Made by a program: the position numbers and the translations under genes. A stretch of DNA of 64,000 nt. It comes from Deltaproteobacteria bacterium HGW-Deltaproteobacteria-6 (GTDB taxonomy: Bacteria > Desulfobacterota > Syntrophia > Syntrophales > Smithellaceae). This document shows positions 19,022-29,442 of the stretch, piece by piece. Location of the stretch: contig PHAT01000005.1 in NCBI GenBank assembly GCA_002840435.1, forward strand, positions 796,460-860,459, in the 5' to 3' direction. Under the pieces are notes generated by a model. It was not told the DNA's origin, made no database searches, and was given only the letters and a program-made list of their open reading frames with translations. Position 1 is the stretch's first letter. Each line of letters begins with the position of its first letter.

Positions 19022-19119
19022 CAGGCCGGGTTCAGAATCGAACTGAACAGTGAACTTCTTTATCGTTCACCCATTGGATTTGAAGTCCAAAGGCCGGCTC
19101 CAGCCGACTAACCCGGTCA
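19022..19119 (-). tRNA. selC: selenocysteine tRNA (anticodon UCA)
   Basis: Read on the minus strand, the sequence folds as tRNA-Sec. A 6-bp D stem (GTCGGC/GCCGGC) has a 4-base loop. The anticodon arm is TTGGA-CTTCAAA-TCCAA with UCA at the anticodon position, reading UGA. A long variable arm has a 6-bp stem (GTGAAC/GTTCAC). The T arm is TTCAG-TTCGATT-CTGAA, and the acceptor GACCGGG pairs with CCCGGCC. There is one A-C mismatch in the acceptor, and CCA is not encoded. The long variable arm, 6-bp D stem and UCA anticodon together are diagnostic. Exact ends are uncertain by one or two bases. Confidence 0.9.
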
Positions 19120-19303: not shown

Positions 19304-19771
19304 CTATCCGCGTTGTTCCTGAACTTTTTTGACCAGTTTGCTTGCAGGTCCCAGCGCCTTGACTTTTGCCGTGACGCCCCTGATAACCTGGGCAAAACGG
19401 TCGCCTTCAGAGGCGGAAACCCAGGTGAAGATGGTCCGGTTGCCTTCCACACCGATGTATGTCAGGAAACTCTTTAACGCGGCAAACTTGCGGCGTGCCA
19501 CTAAATTTCCGGATAGATAGTGGCATTCACCCGGATGACAACCGGAAACCAGAACGCCGTCAGCCCCTTCCTGAAGAGCCTTGACGATATAAAAAGGATT
19601 GATTCTTCCCGTGCAGGGAACGCGAATGATCCGGACATTCGGCGGATACTGAATCCTGCTGATGCCGGCCAGATCCGCTCCCGCGTATGTGCACCAGTTG
19701 CAGACGATCGCGGCGATCTTCGGTTCCCATTCTTTGTTTGCTGTATTTTCAGTCATATAGTTTCCTTCCAT
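19304..19771 (-). CDS. mvhD: MvhD / HdrF-type [2Fe-2S] electron-transfer subunit
   Basis: 155 residues; an in-frame ATG at 19756 with its own AAGGA is an alternative start. Motifs IVCNWCTYAGADLAG, RVPCTGRINP and VSGCHPGECHY are those of the delta subunit of methyl-viologen-reducing hydrogenase, which passes electrons from hydrogenase or formate dehydrogenase to heterodisulfide reductase (HdrA) using a [2Fe-2S] cluster. The Sec position seen in some homologues is Cys here. No hdr or hydrogenase gene is adjacent, so its partner lies elsewhere. Confidence 0.88.
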   Translation of the reverse strand: MEGNYMTENTANKEWEPKIAAIVCNWCTYAGADLAGISRIQYPPNVRIIRVPCTGRINPFYIVKALQEGADGVLVSGCHPGECHYLSGNLVARRKFAALKSFLTYIGVEGNRTIFTWVSASEGDRFAQVIRGVTAKVKALGPASKLVKKVQEQRG

Positions 19772-21252: not shown

Positions 21253-21354
21253 TTTTTATTCCTCCTTCTAACAGTTGATTTGACAATTTTAAACCGATAT
21301 GACCATCGTCTTCAGGTGTGAAATAACTGACAGGCATTTCGGTTCATGATTTGG

Positions 21355-21588
21355 CTACTTTTCCAGCGCTCTGATCTCTACCATTTCCACTTTGTCGGTC
21401 AGAGCGGCTTTGATTTTGTCCTGAAAAGCCGGTTCGAAGCGCAGACAGATCCCGCAGTCCGAACTGATCTGCTTGGGGACGGGAATCAGCTTGTGCGGGA
21501 TCTTTTCAGCCTTGAGAATCTTTTCCGCCTTTAAGGCGTAGCTCACCGACTTGAAGAGCATTACATGATATGATGTATGCGTATTCAT
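21355..21588 (-). CDS. DUF3343 putative Se/S carrier-like protein
   Basis: 77 residues. It has the family layout: VMLFKSVSYALKAEKILK helix, IPHKLIPVPKQISSDCGICLRFEP with C45 and C48, and a C-terminal MVEIRALE strand. Pfam describes this family as putative Se/S carrier-like proteins. The gene overlaps yedF by 4 bases, a recurrent pairing in selenium-using genomes. A damaged second copy lies after mvhD. Confidence 0.85.
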   Translation of the reverse strand: MNTHTSYHVMLFKSVSYALKAEKILKAEKIPHKLIPVPKQISSDCGICLRFEPAFQDKIKAALTDKVEMVEIRALEK

Positions 21589-22199
21589 GGCGTCAGTAAT
21601 CGCGAGGCCTTGCTCATGGTTCCGGCAATGTCATACATATTGGAGACCACGCCAACGCCCATTTTGTCTTTAAGTTCAAAATAGTTCAGGCATGTACCGC
21701 AAACCAGCATTTCCACGCCGGCTGCCGCCAGTTCTTTCAAATCATCCAGAACTTCTGATTCCTGGATGGTAAGTTTTACGCCGGTGTTGTAGAAGATCAT
21801 GACATCAGGTTTATCCTTCTGCAGGCAGATTGTGTGCAGGAAAGCCCTGATCAAAACGGCGCCGAGCTCATCGTTGCCCCGTCCCATTTTGTCCTCGGCG
21901 CAGACGATGACGAAAGGTCCGGAAGCGTCGGCGGAAGCGTTGCACGATACGGAAACATCCTGGGCCGGTAAAGGCGCGCCTGCTTTGCGCGCCAGATCGA
22001 TTTCGTAATTGCCGTCACTATTCTTTTCAACTTTCACGTCGCAGCCCAGCTTTGTTCCCAGACGCTGGACATTTTCCAGCGCCGTGTCGTTATCGACAAT
22101 CACTTTAACCTTGTCGTTTGTTTCAATTGCCTGTTTGGCCAGAACCACCGGCTGCGGGCAGGCAAGCCCTGTGGCGTTGACGATTTTAATATCACTCAT
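21585..22199 (-). CDS. yedF: YedF-type sulfurtransferase-like selenium metabolism protein
   Basis: 204 residues from MSDIKIVNATG. An N-terminal TusA-like domain carries C14 in LACPQPVVLAK, and a C-terminal DsrE-like domain (from about residue 95) ends with EMLVCGTCLNYFELKDKMGVG. The two-domain form is the YedF family found with selenophosphate synthetase and DUF3343 in selenium-using bacteria. It probably carries reduced sulfur or selenium as a persulfide/perselenide. The start lies just downstream of a CGAGATACG repeat element with no good ribosome site. Confidence 0.88.
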   Translation of the reverse strand: MSDIKIVNATGLACPQPVVLAKQAIETNDKVKVIVDNDTALENVQRLGTKLGCDVKVEKNSDGNYEIDLARKAGAPLPAQDVSVSCNASADASGPFVIVCAEDKMGRGNDELGAVLIRAFLHTICLQKDKPDVMIFYNTGVKLTIQESEVLDDLKELAAAGVEMLVCGTCLNYFELKDKMGVGVVSNMYDIAGTMSKASRLLTP

Positions 22200-22206
22200 T
22201 TTAGTA

Positions 22207-22237
22207 TCCCTCGTATCTCGTTGCTCGTATCTCGTGC
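22207..22237 (-). repeat. CGAGATACG repeat upstream of yedF
   Basis: On the minus strand this reads CACGAGATACGAGCAACGAGATACGAG and ends about eight bases before the yedF ATG. The same tandem CGAGATACG motif precedes the start codons at 40928 and 44473, in gene orientation in each case. Confidence 0.65.
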
Positions 22238-22281
22238 GGTGCATCTCAGGGTTTCCGTGCCCGATAGCCGACGTCCGTCGT

Positions 22282-23448
22282 TTACGATTTATGCACCATT
22301 TCCAGCAGGGCTTCCACGCGGGTGCGAATCTGCCCTGCATCGCTTTGCGAGTAATCCGTTTCGATTTTCAAAAACGGCATTTTATACTTTCCCGTAACAT
22401 GTTCTTTAATCTTGTGTGATTCAATATTGTAGGAATGGCAGGCATGAAGCACCACATCGACGACCACATCCGGCCTGAAGCGCTCGATCATTCTATCCAG
22501 CTCCGTCAGACGGCGGGTGTTGGGCGTCATACAGGAGCAGGGGAGGTCCAGATACCGGCGCGCCAGCGCCGCGTATGGGTCCGGCGTGTTTTCAGCAATC
22601 AGACTGGCATAAGGCTTCATGCCGGTGCAGGAATCCAGAACCACAATCACGCCTCCGGCGTCTTCGATGATCTTAAAAACTTTCGTGGCGTCGCCGCCTA
22701 CCGGGCAGCCGGTGACCAGAACGCGGGGAGAATTCTTTTCCCCGTGATAAATACCATCGGCTACGCGCTTTTCGAGTCTGGCGACGCAATCCTTGAGCAG
22801 TGGCAGCATGTCCTGCGTGTTTGAGGCCTGTCCCAGGTAAGTCAGATCATAAAACTCCAGCCAGCTGACCGGCGTCGGGGTGAGTGCGGCAAAATCAAAT
22901 ATTTTATTCATCAGGCGATTTTTTTCATTGGTTGCCTGAATTTCTTTCTCCACGTCTTTGTCGTCAATTTTACGGTCAAAGGTTGTCTCCAGAAAGCCTT
23001 TGAGTTTTTTGACCATGGCCGTCCAGCTGTTCAGGGCTTCCTCCTGGTCGGGAAGCTGCGGCAGATCCATGACATGCATCGGTTTAATCTGCGAGATTAA
23101 CTCAAACATTTTTTTCTTGCCGTCGCAGGTGGTCTCGGCAATGACCGCTTCCGAGATGGCAAAGAAAGGACAGGTATCTGTTTTGATGAAGCCGTAACTG
23201 GATTTAATGAGCGGACAGAGATTGGCCGGAAGAACCGTTTCCGCCGCTTCGATGGTTTTATTGGCAAAGGCGCACAACATCGCCGGCGCGGCGCCTGCGG
23301 CCCGAATGAGTTCCAGGGGAGCATAACTGCAGTAGGTGCCGACAATGTTCTTTCCCTGTTCCCGCTGTTTTTGCAGATAGGCCAATGTCCGTTTTGTAGC
23401 TTCACCGGCAAAGCCGTCATTTACTAATGGTTCAACGCCTGCTTTCAT
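22282..23448 (-). CDS. double-cubane-cluster anaerobic reductase (2-hydroxyacyl-CoA dehydratase family)
   Basis: 388 residues, HgdB/FldC superfamily. Cluster-binding cysteines sit in IVGTYCSYAPLELI, ANLCPLIKSSYGF, TDTCPF, ETTCDGKKK, VTGCPVGGDA and VLHACHSYN. This pattern, and the neighbourhood of yedF and DUF3343, match the single-subunit double-cubane proteins rather than the heterodimeric dehydratases. Such enzymes couple ATP hydrolysis (through a separate activase) to low-potential reductions. Substrate unknown. It is the first gene of the minus-strand set dccp-yedF-DUF3343. Confidence 0.85.
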   Translation of the reverse strand: MKAGVEPLVNDGFAGEATKRTLAYLQKQREQGKNIVGTYCSYAPLELIRAAGAAPAMLCAFANKTIEAAETVLPANLCPLIKSSYGFIKTDTCPFFAISEAVIAETTCDGKKKMFELISQIKPMHVMDLPQLPDQEEALNSWTAMVKKLKGFLETTFDRKIDDKDVEKEIQATNEKNRLMNKIFDFAALTPTPVSWLEFYDLTYLGQASNTQDMLPLLKDCVARLEKRVADGIYHGEKNSPRVLVTGCPVGGDATKVFKIIEDAGGVIVVLDSCTGMKPYASLIAENTPDPYAALARRYLDLPCSCMTPNTRRLTELDRMIERFRPDVVVDVVLHACHSYNIESHKIKEHVTGKYKMPFLKIETDYSQSDAGQIRTRVEALLEMVHKS

Positions 23449-23849: not shown

Positions 23850-24179
23850 ATGAATTACTATGAGCCGAAAGATCTGGCCGACTTTCCGGATATTACCGAA
23901 TGGGCGGCTGACCAGGGAAATAAATTTTTTGAATATTACGGCGCGGCCACCGGGGCGGGCCTGCTCACGGAGCGGGAGAAATCACTCATTGCACTGACCG
24001 TGGCGATGACGCAGAACTGTCCGTATTGCATCGATGCCTTTACCACGAAGTGCATGTCGCTGGGCATTTCCAGCGAGGAGATGATGGAAGCCGCGCATGT
24101 GGGTGCGGCCATGATGGCGGGCGTCACACTGGCGCATACCACGCAGATGCGAAAAATCATCAAAAAGAAGGAAATGTAG
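23850..24179 (+). CDS. AhpD-like peroxidase-type protein of arsenosugar/selenodomain clusters
   Basis: 109 residues of the carboxymuconolactone decarboxylase/AhpD fold. The redox pair is C57 and C60 in MTQNCPYCIDAF, followed by EMMEAAHVGAAMMAG. Members next to ArsS-type radical SAM genes are described as arsenosugar biosynthesis-associated peroxidase-like proteins. GAGGAGG precedes the ATG at good distance. Its stop overlaps the GTG start of the next gene by one base. Confidence 0.85.
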   Translation: MNYYEPKDLADFPDITEWAADQGNKFFEYYGAATGAGLLTEREKSLIALTVAMTQNCPYCIDAFTTKCMSLGISSEEMMEAAHVGAAMMAGVTLAHTTQMRKIIKKKEM

Positions 24180-25186
24180 TGGACGCTTGCGAACAGCTTC
24201 ATATGCTTGGCCGGATTGGCGACAGTCCTTCGTTTGCCCGCAGGATCCGCGCCATCAACAAATTCCCGCTTACGGCCAAGGGCATTGATATTTTGCAGAT
24301 CAACCTGGGCAGTATTTGCAATCTCTCCTGCCGGCACTGTCACGTTAATGCGGGGCCTGCGCGTTCCGAGATCATGTCCCGGCCAATTCTTGCAAAATGC
24401 CTGGAGGTTCTCTCCTCATTGCCGATCGCAACGATTGACATAACCGGCGGCTCGCCCGAAATGAACCCGCATCTCGAATGGTTTATTCATGAGGCGGCAG
24501 GGCTGAACCGGCGTTTGATTGTCCGCTCCAACCTGACCCTGCTTCTGGATGCGCCGTATCGCCATTTCATGGATGTTTTTACGCAAAACAAAGTCGAGAT
24601 TGTGACATCGCTTCCGGATTATATGGAGGTCAAATCCGACCGCCAGCGCGGCGCCGGTGTTTTCAGCAGGGTTATTGAATCGCTTCATGAACTTAATTTG
24701 CGGGGCTACGGCGTGGCGGGAAGCGGCATGTTTATCGACATCGTCCACAACCCGGTGGGCGCCTATCTTCCGGGATCACAGGCGGCTCTCGAGCGCGAAT
24801 ATCATGCGCGGCTTCTGGCTGAGCATGGCGTCCATTTTAACCGGCTTTTCTGCCTCACGAATCTTCCGGTCGGGCGCTATCTGGATTACCTGATTGAATC
24901 CGACAATCTTGACGATTATCTCTCCACACTGTGCCGCTCATTCAACCCGGCTGCGGTTGATAACGTGATGTGCCGGACCACCCTTTCCGTGGGATGGGAC
25001 GGATCGCTCTATGACTGCGACTTCAACCAGATGCTGGGGCTTACCGTCAATCACGGTGCGCCGAAAAATATCATGACTTTTGATCTTGAAAAGCTCAAAA
25101 ACCGCGAGATCGTCATCAATAATCATTGTTATGGATGTGTCGCGGGCAGTGGATCATCCTGCCAGGGGACGACGACAGGGATATAG
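24179..25186 (+). CDS. arsS: ArsS-type radical SAM protein (DUF3641 C-terminus)
   Basis: 335 residues from a GTG overlapping the previous stop; an internal ATG at 24206 is an alternative. The radical SAM cluster is C48-x3-C52-x2-C55 in CNLSCRHCHVNAGP, followed by TIDITGGSPEMNP. The C-terminal Cys-rich tail HCYGCVAGSGSSCQG is the DUF3641 signature. Characterised ArsS forms the 5'-deoxyadenosyl-arsenic bond of arsenosugars. In this family some positions are Sec, but here they are Cys. No arsM methyltransferase is present in the window, so the arsenic role is by homology only. Confidence 0.88.
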   Translation: MDACEQLHMLGRIGDSPSFARRIRAINKFPLTAKGIDILQINLGSICNLSCRHCHVNAGPARSEIMSRPILAKCLEVLSSLPIATIDITGGSPEMNPHLEWFIHEAAGLNRRLIVRSNLTLLLDAPYRHFMDVFTQNKVEIVTSLPDYMEVKSDRQRGAGVFSRVIESLHELNLRGYGVAGSGMFIDIVHNPVGAYLPGSQAALEREYHARLLAEHGVHFNRLFCLTNLPVGRYLDYLIESDNLDDYLSTLCRSFNPAAVDNVMCRTTLSVGWDGSLYDCDFNQMLGLTVNHGAPKNIMTFDLEKLKNREIVINNHCYGCVAGSGSSCQGTTTGI

Positions 25187-25190
25187 CCGC

Positions 25191-25892
25191 ATGAAAATAT
25201 CGATCATCATTCCGGCTCTCCATGAAGGCGCACAAATCAATGAAGCGCTGAATTCACTGAAAGTCGCTGCCGCCGGGATTCCATACGAAGTGATTGTCGC
25301 AGACGGCGACCCATCGGGCGGCACCATCAGGCAGATTGCGGATTCCCGCGTTATCACTCTGATCGCACCCGCAGGCCGGGCAAAACAGATGAATGCGGGC
25401 GCCGCCCGGGCAGCCGGAGATATTCTTCTTTTTCTGCATGCCGATACGCACCTGCCGCAAAATGTATTTTTTAAAATCATGGCGGCGCTTTCCGATGGAC
25501 GTTTTATCGGCGGCGCTTTTGATCTGGGCATCCGGAACGGCCGCCGGATATTTCAGATCATCGGCCGCTGCGCTTCCTGGAAGCACCGTCTGACGCGTGT
25601 GCCCTACGGCGACCAGGCGATTTTCATGCTGCGGAATTATTTTGAGGAGATGGGCGGCTATCCGGAGATTCCTTTAATGGAAGACGTGGAACTGATGAAG
25701 CGCGTGAAACGGCGGGGAGGGCGCATCATCATCCTGCCTCAGACCGTGATGACCTCTTCGCGAAAATGGGAAAAAGACGGCGTGGCCTATACCATTGCCA
25801 GGAACTGGGTGATTCAGACACTCTATCTTCTGGGCGTACCGGCAGAGCGGCTGGTGAAATATTATTACCAAGAGCAACGGGAATTAAGATGA
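25191..25892 (+). CDS. family 2 glycosyltransferase, selenodomain-associated type 2
   Basis: 233 residues from MKISIIIPALHEG. It is a GT-A fold protein: VIVADGDPSGGT (a D-x-S-x-D-G-T variant), GRAKQMNAGAARAAGDILLFLHADT with the DxD-like HADT, and VPYGDQAIFMLRNYFEEMGGYPEIPLMEDVEL. These motifs define the transferase group co-occurring with selenodomain radical SAM genes. It starts four bases after arsS and overlaps the next gene by 4 bases. Confidence 0.87.
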   Translation: MKISIIIPALHEGAQINEALNSLKVAAAGIPYEVIVADGDPSGGTIRQIADSRVITLIAPAGRAKQMNAGAARAAGDILLFLHADTHLPQNVFFKIMAALSDGRFIGGAFDLGIRNGRRIFQIIGRCASWKHRLTRVPYGDQAIFMLRNYFEEMGGYPEIPLMEDVELMKRVKRRGGRIIILPQTVMTSSRKWEKDGVAYTIARNWVIQTLYLLGVPAERLVKYYYQEQRELR

Positions 25893-26602
25893 ACAAATTT
25901 CTGATTATTCTGGCGGCGGTTTCGATGTTAAGTGCCGCACCTCTTTCAGCGCAGATGATGGAGCAGGGGTTTCGCGAGGAGTTCAATTCGCTTACTAACT
26001 GGAAGCCGCTGACCTTTCCTAAAATACCACGCCACAGCACCTATCGTATTCAGAAGGACGACTCGAAAAGTTTTCTTGTCGCGGTGGCGGACCGCTCCGC
26101 GTCGGGCATCATCCATGCCGGGAGTTTTAATATTTATAAAACGCCGATCATCCAATGGAGATGGAAGATTTCCAATGTCTACCAGGCAGGCGATGAAAAG
26201 AAGAAGTCCGGCGACGACTACCCCTTGCGCATCTACGTGGTGTTTAAATATGATCCGGAAAAGGCAGGTGCGTGGGAAAAGGCGCAGTATAAAACCCTGA
26301 AGCTTTTTTACGGCGACTATCCGCCGCACAGCAGCCTCAACTACATCTGGGCCAATAAGAAATATCCCGACCGCATTTTACCGAACCCTTATACGGCCAA
26401 GGCGCAGATGATTCTCCTGCAGAAAGGCCCGGATCGCGCAGGACAATGGGTCGATGAACAGGTGAACGCTCTGGAAGATTACCGCAAGGCCTTCGGAGCC
26501 GATCCTCCCCGGGAGGCAACTATCGCGATTATGAGCGATGCGGATAACACCGGAGAGAAGGCAACCGGATATGTGGATTATATCGAGGTGTCGCCTCAAT
26601 GA
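25889..26602 (+). CDS. DUF3047 exported protein
   Basis: 237 residues. A signal peptide covers residues 1-21 (LSAAPLSA-Q). The mature part has DUF3047 features: FNIYKTPIIQWRWKISNVY, DDYPLRIYVVFKYDP, SSLNYIWANK and AIAIMSDADNTGEKATGYVDYI near the end (part shown). The fold is probably a periplasmic beta-sandwich; function unknown. It overlaps both neighbours by 4 bases. Confidence 0.82.
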   Translation: MNKFLIILAAVSMLSAAPLSAQMMEQGFREEFNSLTNWKPLTFPKIPRHSTYRIQKDDSKSFLVAVADRSASGIIHAGSFNIYKTPIIQWRWKISNVYQAGDEKKKSGDDYPLRIYVVFKYDPEKAGAWEKAQYKTLKLFYGDYPPHSSLNYIWANKKYPDRILPNPYTAKAQMILLQKGPDRAGQWVDEQVNALEDYRKAFGADPPREATIAIMSDADNTGEKATGYVDYIEVSPQ

Positions 26603-27261
26603 ACGGAAACGCTTTTATCCTGTTTCTGAAATATCCCGAACGGGGCGCGGTAAAAACGCGTCTGGCCCGAACGCTTGGCGATGATGTGGCGTACGAACTC
26701 TATGCGTGCTTTCTTTCGGATATCGCGGCCATGACTCATCAGGTGAACGCCGAAACGATTATTGTGTATGCGGGACCCGCAGGCATTATGTTTCCTGACT
26801 TTCCGGGAGTGCGTTTGATGCAGCAGCGGGGGAGTGGCATCGGTTGTCGAATGTATTTTGCTCTGGAGGATGTCTTTGCGCTGGGCTTTGAAAGATGCGT
26901 GCTGGTGGGAAGTGACATCCCCGATCTGCCTGCCCGGCTGGTGAATGATGCCCTTAATAAACTTGAGGTGGTTGACGTTGTGCTCGGGCCAAGCCGGGAC
27001 GGCGGCTATTATCTGGTTGGCTGCAACCGGGCCAGCCTGTGCCGCCCGATGTTTTCCGGCATTCCCTGGAGTACGTCCGGTGTCTTATCGGAAACGCTCC
27101 GGCGTATTGCCGAAGCCGGACTTGTAACGGCGCAAGTTGAAGAGTGGTGGGATATCGATGAGCCCGATGATCTGCGGCAATTTTATGCAAGAAACAGCGA
27201 CGCGGCAGGAGCATCAAAGGTCATGAAATTTTTAGAAGCAAAGGGAATCATCAACCGGTGA
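26599..27261 (+). CDS. DUF2064 nucleotidyltransferase-like, selenodomain-associated transferase 1
   Basis: 220 residues. FLKYPERGAVKTRLARTLG is the N-terminal loop of this GT-A-like family; CVLVGSDIPDLP supplies the D-x-P metal-site segment, with LGPSRDGGYYLVG after it. The family occurs next to the type 2 transferase and radical SAM protein, as here. Donor and acceptor are unknown. It overlaps neighbours by 4 bases on each side. Confidence 0.87.
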   Translation: MNGNAFILFLKYPERGAVKTRLARTLGDDVAYELYACFLSDIAAMTHQVNAETIIVYAGPAGIMFPDFPGVRLMQQRGSGIGCRMYFALEDVFALGFERCVLVGSDIPDLPARLVNDALNKLEVVDVVLGPSRDGGYYLVGCNRASLCRPMFSGIPWSTSGVLSETLRRIAEAGLVTAQVEEWWDIDEPDDLRQFYARNSDAAGASKVMKFLEAKGIINR

Positions 27262-28964
27262 ATGATTTTAAAGAAAAATGCGCGGCTTGCGGCATCTGCA
27301 GGAAAGTATGCCCGTTCCTGTCGGAATTCGGAACACCGGAAGAAATTCTGGCCGGATGTCCGGAGGTGTCTTTTTACTGCACCTCCTGCGGGCGGTGTGA
27401 GACGGTATGCCCCCTGCACCTGTCGCCGTCTGATGCTTTTTTTGCGGCAAAAGAAAGGCTTGTTCGTGAGCGGCAGATGCCGCTGCCGGTCGGGACGGCG
27501 TTGGAAGGCGCCAGGGCGTTTGCGAAAGCCGGCCATGGGTTTCCCTTTTCTTTTTATGGAAGCGCGGAGACGGTTTTCTGGCCGGGTTGCACGCTGGCCG
27601 GAAGCGAACCGGGACTGGTCCGGGAGCTTTGCGCAATCCTCGGCGGCCGGTTGCACCGGAAGGTCGGTCTGGCGCTGGATTGCTGTTACGATCCGGTTTA
27701 CGGACTGGGCGATCTGCAAACAGCCTATGCCGCTTTGCAGAACATCAACCAGCGTCTTCACGATCACGGCGTCAGGCAGGTGATCACCGGTTGTCTGAAT
27801 TGCCACAAGCTCCTGACGCGCCATTTGAAGGACATCGAGGTTATTTTTATTATGGAGCTGCTGCCGACGGAGCTTTTTGAAAAAAAATGGGCAGGAGCGG
27901 CTTATCTTCATCATCCCTGTGCGTCCGCGCGCCGGGAAGACATCAGGATTAATGCGCAAGAGATATTCAGTCATCTGCAGCCGCCGCCGGAAGATAAAAA
28001 ATCCGCTTCTTCCGGGCCGTCCGAAGCCCGGTGCTGCGGCGCAGGCGGCGGGCTTAGCGCCACATGGCCTATACTTGCCGACTGCTTTCTGGATCAGATC
28101 GTCAGGGAGGCAAAAGGTGCGACGCTGGTTACCTATTGCGCCGGTTGCCGGAACCGCTTTCTTACGCGGGGGGCAAAAGCGGTCCACCTTCTGGAGGGCC
28201 TGAGCCGAAAGGTCCCGCGCGGAAAGGTTCTTTCCAGCCCGGTCCAATGGGCCAATCGTTTTCTGCTGTCGATGACGGCCAGACTTAAAACGTTAAAATT
28301 CTTAATGGCTATCCTGATGGTTCTGCTGATTTCAGGCGGCGTGTATCTGACGCAGCAGAATGTCTTTTCAGCGGCAGCTTTGACGGCTCTCCTCGGGCGT
28401 TATCCGGTGGCGGCTCCCCTTATTTTTTTATGCATCTATGCCGTTGCGCCTTCGTTGTTTCTGCCCGCTATCCCCCTCACTCTGGCGGCAGGGTTCTTCT
28501 GGGGGCCGGTCTGGGGCGTGATATTCGCCATTTCCGGGGCGACGATCGGTTCCTGTCTGCCTTTTTTCCTGTCCCGCTATTTGCTCCAGGACACCGTTAA
28601 ATCCCGGGTTGCGGAAGAACGATGGAACTGGCTTCAGGATAAAGTGACCGAGCACGGCTGGAAGGCCGTTGCCTTTACCCGTCTGATTCCCGTCTTTCCC
28701 TTCAACCTCTTGAATTATCTTTTCGGTCTGACGCCCATTCCTTTTCGTCATTACCTGTGGAGCACTTTCGTTTTCATGCTTCCGGCCTGCATCGCTTTTG
28801 TGGCGTTCGGCAGCTCTCTGGGAGAGTTGATCCTCAGGGGGAATGTCCGGGGGCTAGTGATCGGCATTGCCGTTGCCGTCTGTGCTTTTCTGATTCCTGT
28901 CCTGATCCGGCCGTTTTTCAGAAAAATCGGGGAAAGCAAGGATCAAACTCCCGGCGGGAATTGA
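27258..28964 (+). CDS. fusion of Fe-S/CCG oxidoreductase domain and TVP38/TMEM64 membrane domain
   Basis: 568 residues, GTG start overlapping the preceding stop by 4 bases. The N terminus has two [4Fe-4S] motifs: C8, C11, C14, C18 and C41, C44, C47, C51. CCG-type segments (DCCYDPVYG, CLNCHK, RCCGAGGG, CAGCRNR), as in heterodisulfide reductase HdrD/GlpC, extend to about residue 320. From about residue 340 a TVP38/VTT domain begins, with several helices and FTRLIPVFPFNLLNYLFGLTPI. A soluble redox domain thus seems tied to a DedA-like membrane domain. The fusion has no frame break. Last gene of the six-gene operon. Confidence 0.8.
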   Translation: MNDFKEKCAACGICRKVCPFLSEFGTPEEILAGCPEVSFYCTSCGRCETVCPLHLSPSDAFFAAKERLVRERQMPLPVGTALEGARAFAKAGHGFPFSFYGSAETVFWPGCTLAGSEPGLVRELCAILGGRLHRKVGLALDCCYDPVYGLGDLQTAYAALQNINQRLHDHGVRQVITGCLNCHKLLTRHLKDIEVIFIMELLPTELFEKKWAGAAYLHHPCASARREDIRINAQEIFSHLQPPPEDKKSASSGPSEARCCGAGGGLSATWPILADCFLDQIVREAKGATLVTYCAGCRNRFLTRGAKAVHLLEGLSRKVPRGKVLSSPVQWANRFLLSMTARLKTLKFLMAILMVLLISGGVYLTQQNVFSAAALTALLGRYPVAAPLIFLCIYAVAPSLFLPAIPLTLAAGFFWGPVWGVIFAISGATIGSCLPFFLSRYLLQDTVKSRVAEERWNWLQDKVTEHGWKAVAFTRLIPVFPFNLLNYLFGLTPIPFRHYLWSTFVFMLPACIAFVAFGSSLGELILRGNVRGLVIGIAVAVCAFLIPVLIRPFFRKIGESKDQTPGGN

Positions 28965-29009: not shown

Positions 29010-29303
29010 TCAGCATGGTTCGGACAACGGGGAGCAGACCGTAAATCCCTCACCGTACCAGGAGTCTTTATAGTCGATCAAAGTCTGATGAAACAAATCT
29101 TTTTCCTCTTTGTCATAAGCAAACTTGATGCCTTCCAGGTGCACAATTTCATCTTCATCTTTTGGTTCATCCAGAACCATTGCCAGCCTGGGTCCGATTC
29201 AGCCAAAGCCCTGTTGAACCAACCGGACGGATCGGGCATTAAAACGTTCAAGCACTTTGAAAAGTTCAATTTTCGCTGTTTCCGTTATCTTGATTTCAAT
29301 CAT
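29010..29303 (-). CDS. HesB-like selenoprotein (in-frame UGA = Sec35)
   Basis: A 97-codon frame with one internal TGA (29199-29201). Read as Sec, the protein is MIEIKITETAKIELFKVL at the start, then VRLVQQGFGUIGPRLAMVLD around residue 35, and ends FTVCSPLSEPC. This matches the HesB/IscA-like selenoprotein family, in which a GFGU-xGP motif is followed by a LxLDEP strand. The coding pattern continues smoothly on both sides of the TGA, ending at a second TGA. A tRNA-Sec gene lies 10 kb away. A small stem-loop follows the UGA. The role is unknown; a scaffold-like Fe-S or redox function is inferred. It converges on the Fe-S/TVP38 fusion gene. Confidence 0.85.
29171..29191 (-). promoter_or_regulatory. 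candidate bacterial SECIS element
   Basis: Seven bases downstream of the Sec UGA, CCAGG (29191-29187) pairs with UCUGG (29175-29171) around an 11-base loop, CUGGCAAUGGU, which has G residues as in SelB-binding loops. Position and size are acceptable for a bacterial SECIS, but the stem is short. Confidence 0.4.
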
Positions 29304-29442
29304 GACCTGTTCCCTTTCATCTCTCATCACTAACATATGTCCGCCTCAGAAAAAATCAAGCGCGGCACCTGAATTTCATCGATCCCCCCCCCGTAAAAAA
29401 TCCGCTTGCCCGCTCCAATCGACTATGACATGGTCCGTTTCT

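Follow-up and report, generated by a model that had tools for sequence, protein, structure and literature searches.

HesB-like selenoproteins are a long-known family. Eleven of them are listed in Table 1 of one survey (PMC1794560), and PMC13188914 quotes for them the model TIGR01911 and the motif UxGP. According to PMC11097638 it is unclear what HesB-like selenoproteins do; the same paper cites an unpublished observation that disruption in Methanococcus maripaludis left nitrogen fixation unimpaired. For E. coli IscA, replacement of Cys35, Cys99 and Cys101 by serine is described in PMC6495748, the conserved cysteines reportedly being required for zinc binding. A literature search for selenoproteins in Syntrophales found no paper.

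The DNA analyzed here (the window, 64,000 nucleotides in all) is from a Syntrophales genome and contains a short minus-strand frame interrupted by one UGA (Table 1). This frame is very probably a selenoprotein gene, and it merits annotation. It is a new, divergent member of the HesB-like family and represents a second lineage of it.

Table 1. Features of the HesB-like locus and its decoding machinery (positions in the window)
Feature	Position	Strand	Remarks
CDS, divergent HesB-like selenoprotein (predicted)	29010..29303	(-)	97 aa, ATG start, TGA stop at 29012-29010
In-frame UGA, putative Sec35, GFG-U-IGP (UxGP)	29199..29201	(-)	UGA in 4/4 full-length sequences; aligned to IscA Cys35
Putative bSECIS GGUUC-UGGAU-GAACC, 5-nt loop with GG	29164..29178	(-)	Comparison and four bSECIS constraints
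Cys97 codon, last residue, proposed second ligand	29013..29015	(-)	4/4 full-length sequences and fragments L034, L035
Possible Shine-Dalgarno AAAGGGAA, 5' of ATG	29310..29317	(-)	Putative; read by eye
tRNA-Sec, anticodon UCA, decoding machinery	19023..19118	(-)	ARAGORN, Rfam

The reading frame and its family

The frame is as the initial annotation had described it, with 97 codons and a single internal TGA within GFGUIGP. Its M1 is common to all four full-length sequences (the window gene and three orthologues), and A/G-rich stretches also lie 5' of M1 in the three orthologues. The terminal TGA is regarded as a genuine stop because the orthologue L005 has TAG at the same place; for the same reason a Cys-Sec tail formed by the final codon pair was rejected. 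When the segment is read without recoding, the listed ORFs of at least 60 aa over it are out of frame or antisense, so that ordinary gene calling would probably miss the selenoprotein frame. Scanning of TGA extensions and gaps by eye gave no convincing further selenoprotein gene in the window.

The family profile scores were computed with Cys in place of U35. Nearly the whole protein, including both sides of the UGA, matches NF038090 (IscA_HesB_Se; 51.7 bits, E 8.2e-14, cut-off 85) and TIGR01911 (HesB_rel_seleno; 43.3 bits, E 4.1e-11, cut-off 66.35), which bears out the HesB/IscA-like character proposed earlier. The match to TIGR00049 reaches 38 bits (cut-off 58.8). PF01521 (Fe-S_biosyn) also covers nearly the whole protein (25.5 bits, E 1.6e-5, gathering cut-off 26.3); in the genome search the window protein scored 21.3 with this model. 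The PF01521 cut-off is passed by the orthologues in the genomes G010 (32.5) and G006 (26.6, with frame neighbours) and failed by that in G015 (25.1). The NCBIfam cut-offs are failed by the window protein, by the two orthologues scanned and shown (L004 and L005) and by four short-tailed relatives considered below. Since the window protein reaches neither the Pfam nor the NCBIfam cut-offs, the gene would probably escape routine annotation, as had been expected from the sequence.

With the HesB-like selenoproteins of TIGR01911 and NF038090 the protein shares Sec at the same place in UxGP, an IscA-like domain and a similar length, as well as a SECIS hairpin with a UGGA loop over the same V/A-L-D-E codons. 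Unlike the usual members, which have a GGCGSCSC-type tail, the window lineage ends in S-P-x-S-E-P-C with one conserved Cys and stands as a clade of its own, its branch measuring 2.13 changes per column. It resembles four short-tailed HesB-like selenoproteins of the same phylum (L106, L110, L111 and L113), which are UGA-coded and have one Cys at or next to the C-terminus, three of the four with the motif GFGUGGPRL. In a tree of a chosen set of 37 rows the window lineage groups with these four at 96/88 support, a grouping that may reflect long-branch attraction because the branches on both sides are long (a warning of the tree program). Being themselves below the NCBIfam cut-offs, the four short-tailed proteins are further selenoproteins that annotation may miss.

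The same genome has another HesB-like selenoprotein (L002, C3:32479-32745) of the same superfamily, which is UGA-coded too and has the same SECIS design. Unlike the window protein, with which it is 41% identical over residues 7-95, it belongs to another clade and has the tail GCGSCSCH; it passes NF038090 (105.4 bits) and fails TIGR01911 (56.6 of 66.35). The possibility that the window gene is a recent duplicate of this gene was considered and rejected in view of the separate clades.

Predicted fold and putative ligands

The AlphaFold2 model of the window protein (Cys at 35, 22 sequences) has a mean pLDDT of 91.3 and a pTM of 0.80. Searched with Foldseek, it gives nine matches with E ≤0.001, which are chains of HI1723, IscA, AQ_1857, SufA and DsrR. 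The fold predicted by this confident model is of the IscA/SufA type. The best chains of E. coli IscA and SufA (1r94, 1x0g, 2d2a and 1s98) are matched with E of 5.8e-6 to 1.4e-5, the identity in the Foldseek alignments being 20-24%.

When the protein is aligned with E. coli IscA by phmmer (PDB 1s98, there named yfhF), U35 falls on Cys35, so that the ligand position is shared and Sec stands in place of Cys. This alignment stops at residue 93, and the correspondence of Cys97 to IscA Cys99 is therefore extrapolated. The initial annotation had pointed to a C-terminal pair, C90 and C97. The second of these stood up, being found in each of the four full-length sequences as well as in the two C-terminal fragments described below; the first is variable, with W in the orthologue L005 and G in the fragment L035. 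Thus one conserved C-terminal Cys is found, unlike the Cys99/Cys101 pair of E. coli IscA (PMC6495748), and instead of the three conserved cysteines by which A-type carriers are recognized the window lineage has Sec35 and one terminal Cys.

The product is predicted to adopt the IscA fold, with Sec at the site of the first metal-ligand Cys of IscA (Cys35) and with the single Cys97 close to the position of IscA Cys99. Such a protein would most likely act as a dimeric carrier, in which an Fe-S cluster or a metal would be held through Sec35 and Cys97. We lean, if slightly, towards this A-type carrier reading, in which the cluster or metal is bound by Sec35 and Cys97, perhaps across the dimer.

Alternatively, a Sec protein of the IscA fold could be a thiol/selenol redox protein, with a reversible selenenylsulfide between Sec35 and Cys97 and no role as an Fe-S carrier. 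PMC13188914 notes that redox motifs, or homology to thiol oxidoreductases, are found in many selenoproteins, and the retention of just Sec35 and one conserved C-terminal Cys, with no tail of the GGCGSCSC type, is in line with such a function. However, the predicted fold and the position of Sec match IscA and its ligand Cys, and neither CxxC nor UxxC occurs in the 97-residue sequence. A redox role is thus rather unlikely, and the carrier function is kept below as the preferred one.

Conservation of the UGA and the SECIS hairpin

Three further genomes of the genus have full-length orthologues, with 84, 76 and 63% identity and one UGA each. With a four-sequence profile at E ≤1e-12 the gene is detected in 4 of the 20 genomes of the genus (own genome included). 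No further full-length orthologue was recognized by score among 155 genomes of the class, where a fragment at 4.9e-15 and a match at 2.8e-13 came next, or among 395 genomes drawn from the phylum, where a fragment at 8.9e-32 was followed by a match at 2.9e-15; beyond the phylum, the search for orthologues was a single peptide-pattern scan of genome contigs. All three orthologues start upstream of the UGA, and none of the four sequences has another internal stop. In all six pairwise comparisons dN is lower than dS both 5' and 3' of the UGA, with few differences, especially upstream, so that the protein-like character noted earlier on both sides of the codon is upheld.

A search of 59 genomes (own included) gave matches at E 0.001 in 48 of them. 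In-frame TGA is single in 54 of the 61 matches and absent from the other seven. The protein motif by which rows were chosen is present in 99 of the 114 loci collected, with UGA in 96 and Cys in three (L036, L082 and L085); the 15 loci that lack it comprise ten from the searches for Sec machinery, four fragments and L092. Some loci repeat a gene, and the 99 reduce to 82 distinct sequences, of which 79 have Sec and three Cys. Homologues aligned to the UGA thus have either Sec or, in the three non-UGA homologues that were read, Cys at position 35 (the 7/61 matches without TGA, G149 and G382 lie outside this count). Together with the UGA kept by the three orthologues of the genus and the alignment to Cys35 of IscA, this agrees with the assignment of Sec made in the initial annotation.

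The UGA could instead be a true stop, the locus being a gene in decay or consisting of two short frames that have nothing to do with each other. UGA is the stop codon of 14 of the 56 non-overlapping window ORFs of at least 110 aa, including those of YedF and two glycosyltransferases. Moreover, two distant genomes have C-terminal fragments without the UGA, upstream of which the reading is unrelated; their existence indicates that loss of the first part of the gene may happen. One fragment covers residues 39-97 (L034 5001-5177; also reached as G235/L105) and the other residues 64-97 (L035 5001-5102; also reached as G067/L070). Their DNA is about 87% identical to the G015 copy and their break points differ, which suggests truncated or transferred copies; transfer followed by decay, or assembly faults, could have produced them. 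Against a stop stands the whole frame, kept in four genomes with its UGA and with dN below dS on either side, and the hairpin adds to this.

For bacterial SECIS elements, a figure legend in PMC13188914 lists constraints that include a loop of 3-9 nt, an upper stem of 4-16 bp and a spacing of 16-37 nt; further constraints in the same source are a G in the first two loop positions and an MFE of -7.5 kcal/mol or lower. The hairpin of the window gene lies within these limits, with a loop of 5 nt (UGGAU), a stem of 5-6 bp, 25 nt between the UGA and the loop, and -8.9 kcal/mol. A hairpin had been anticipated 3' of the UGA, and one is present; its position had been given as 29171-29191, and the conserved structure is that of Table 1. 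Fold energy was rejected as evidence for SECIS, the UGA with the following 45 nt having a z of -0.03 (85 of 200 shuffles are as good). Since the energy is like that of shuffles, which would also fit a true stop, the SECIS case rests on comparison.

Every one of the 79 distinct Sec rows can form all five pairs of the hairpin, 11 rows by using a G-U pair. At pair 25-35, 47 rows have C-G, 31 have U-A and one has U-G. Val codons GTT (32 rows) are paired with GAA except in one row, and Ala or Ser codons (GCT in 40 rows, TCT in 7) with GAG, which makes this pair U-A or C-G. All 79 Sec rows have T as the last base of codon 43 and CTG as codon 44, while codon 40, also for Leu, varies (CTG 29, TTG 24 and CTT 1 in 54 distinct rows). 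The same two codon features are unchanged in the three Cys rows, and their constancy alone is therefore no mark of Sec. The hairpin is broken in one Cys row and has U-G at pair 25-35 in the other two; remnant SECIS-like structures in Cys homologues, a HesB-like one included, are reported in PMC1794560. A tree of 37 rows provides three independent, well-supported contrasts for pair 25-35, of which typically two agree, none opposes and one is one-sided, and with so small a number a sign test of covariation cannot come near significance. A shuffle control gave 0 of 20000 for the covarying pair; it ignores relatedness and is not relied on. The pairing of the hairpin throughout the 79 Sec rows, with compensatory changes, argues against a true stop, which is very improbable.

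Decoding of UGA as Sec could be provided by the genome itself. The tRNA-Sec gene, which had been noted in the window, is found by both ARAGORN and Rfam (19024-19118 in Rfam, 50.5 bits, gathering cut-off 47). SelA (602.4 bits, cut-off 267.9), SelB (364.8 bits, cut-off 242.25) and SelD (373 bits, cut-off 125; with one in-frame TGA within it) are present in the same genome. Reading of the UGA as another amino acid (e.g., Trp) or by chance read-through is hardly credible, given UGA stops elsewhere in the window (14 of 56 ORFs), this machinery and Cys at the position in three non-UGA homologues.

Very probably, then, the locus is a functional gene of a HesB/IscA (A-type carrier) selenoprotein, in which UGA35 would be decoded as Sec by SelB and tRNA-Sec under the direction of the hairpin, and whose product would likely be an Fe-S or metal carrier. 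For this explanation the frame, its conservation, selection, SECIS, machinery and predicted fold were computed; we infer that Sec is actually inserted, that Cys97 is equivalent to IscA Cys99, and that the protein dimerises, binds a cluster and serves client proteins.

Genomic context and the place of the lineage

In G015, as in the window, the gene adjoins the ABC-F gene, and purL lies on its other side there, and the contig ends about 2 kb past the gene on the ABC-F side; by tblastn, these two are the only ones of the 18 other window proteins near the gene there. None of the 18 was found by tblastn in the 20 kb around the gene in G010 and G006. No neighbour common to all four genomes was found in the 18-20 kb around the gene, and the proposed function therefore rests on the fold and the ligand positions only. 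A hint of function had been drawn from the neighbouring Fe-S/TVP38 fusion gene. It had to be abandoned, since this gene was not found in the 18-20 kb around the selenoprotein gene in the other three genomes.

The plus-strand region 23850-28964 holds an arsenosugar-type cluster, which comprises a peroxidase-like protein (TIGR04169), radical SAM ArsS (TIGR04167; no in-frame TGA in the gene) and glycosyltransferases (TIGR04283 and TIGR04282). The same region encodes one protein with no NCBIfam match and the Fe-S/VTT-domain fusion protein, which has a partial match, below the cut-off, to NF045663 ('diclust_near_Sec'). As the neighbours are not conserved, neither this cluster nor the fusion gene defines the function of the selenoprotein.

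Other genes of the window touch on selenium or lie next to the tRNA. Selenium-related YedF (TIGR03527, 201 bits) and a double-cubane-cluster reductase (NF040772, 473.7 bits) are encoded at 21253-23448 (-). Within 21253-21584 lies a small frame that presumably resembles DUF3343. A stand-alone MvhD/FlpD-like protein (PF02662, 172.3 bits; 19304-19771, minus strand) adjoins the tRNA-Sec gene and has no in-frame TGA.

A PF01521 search of the window's genome at E 0.1 gave only two matches, both UGA-coded, and detected no ordinary IscA, SufA or ErpA. At E 0.001, 32 of the 35 matches in 59 genomes (own included) are UGA-coded; this search matched 28 genomes, vs. 48 in the search described above with its 7/61 non-UGA matches, two of which are in G017 of the same genus. 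It is conceivable, as a tentative and rather doubtful proposal, that the A-type Fe-S carrier role of the lineage lies largely or wholly with selenoproteins and that the window gene represents a second, reduced carrier (Sec35 and Cys97) with clients of its own and horizontal spread.

The window gene extends by a divergent lineage a selenoprotein family for which PMC11097638 calls the function unclear, and it illustrates that lineages of this kind can escape curated models. With Sec35 and a single conserved C-terminal Cys occurring naturally, it would offer a minimal test case for Sec as an Fe-S ligand.
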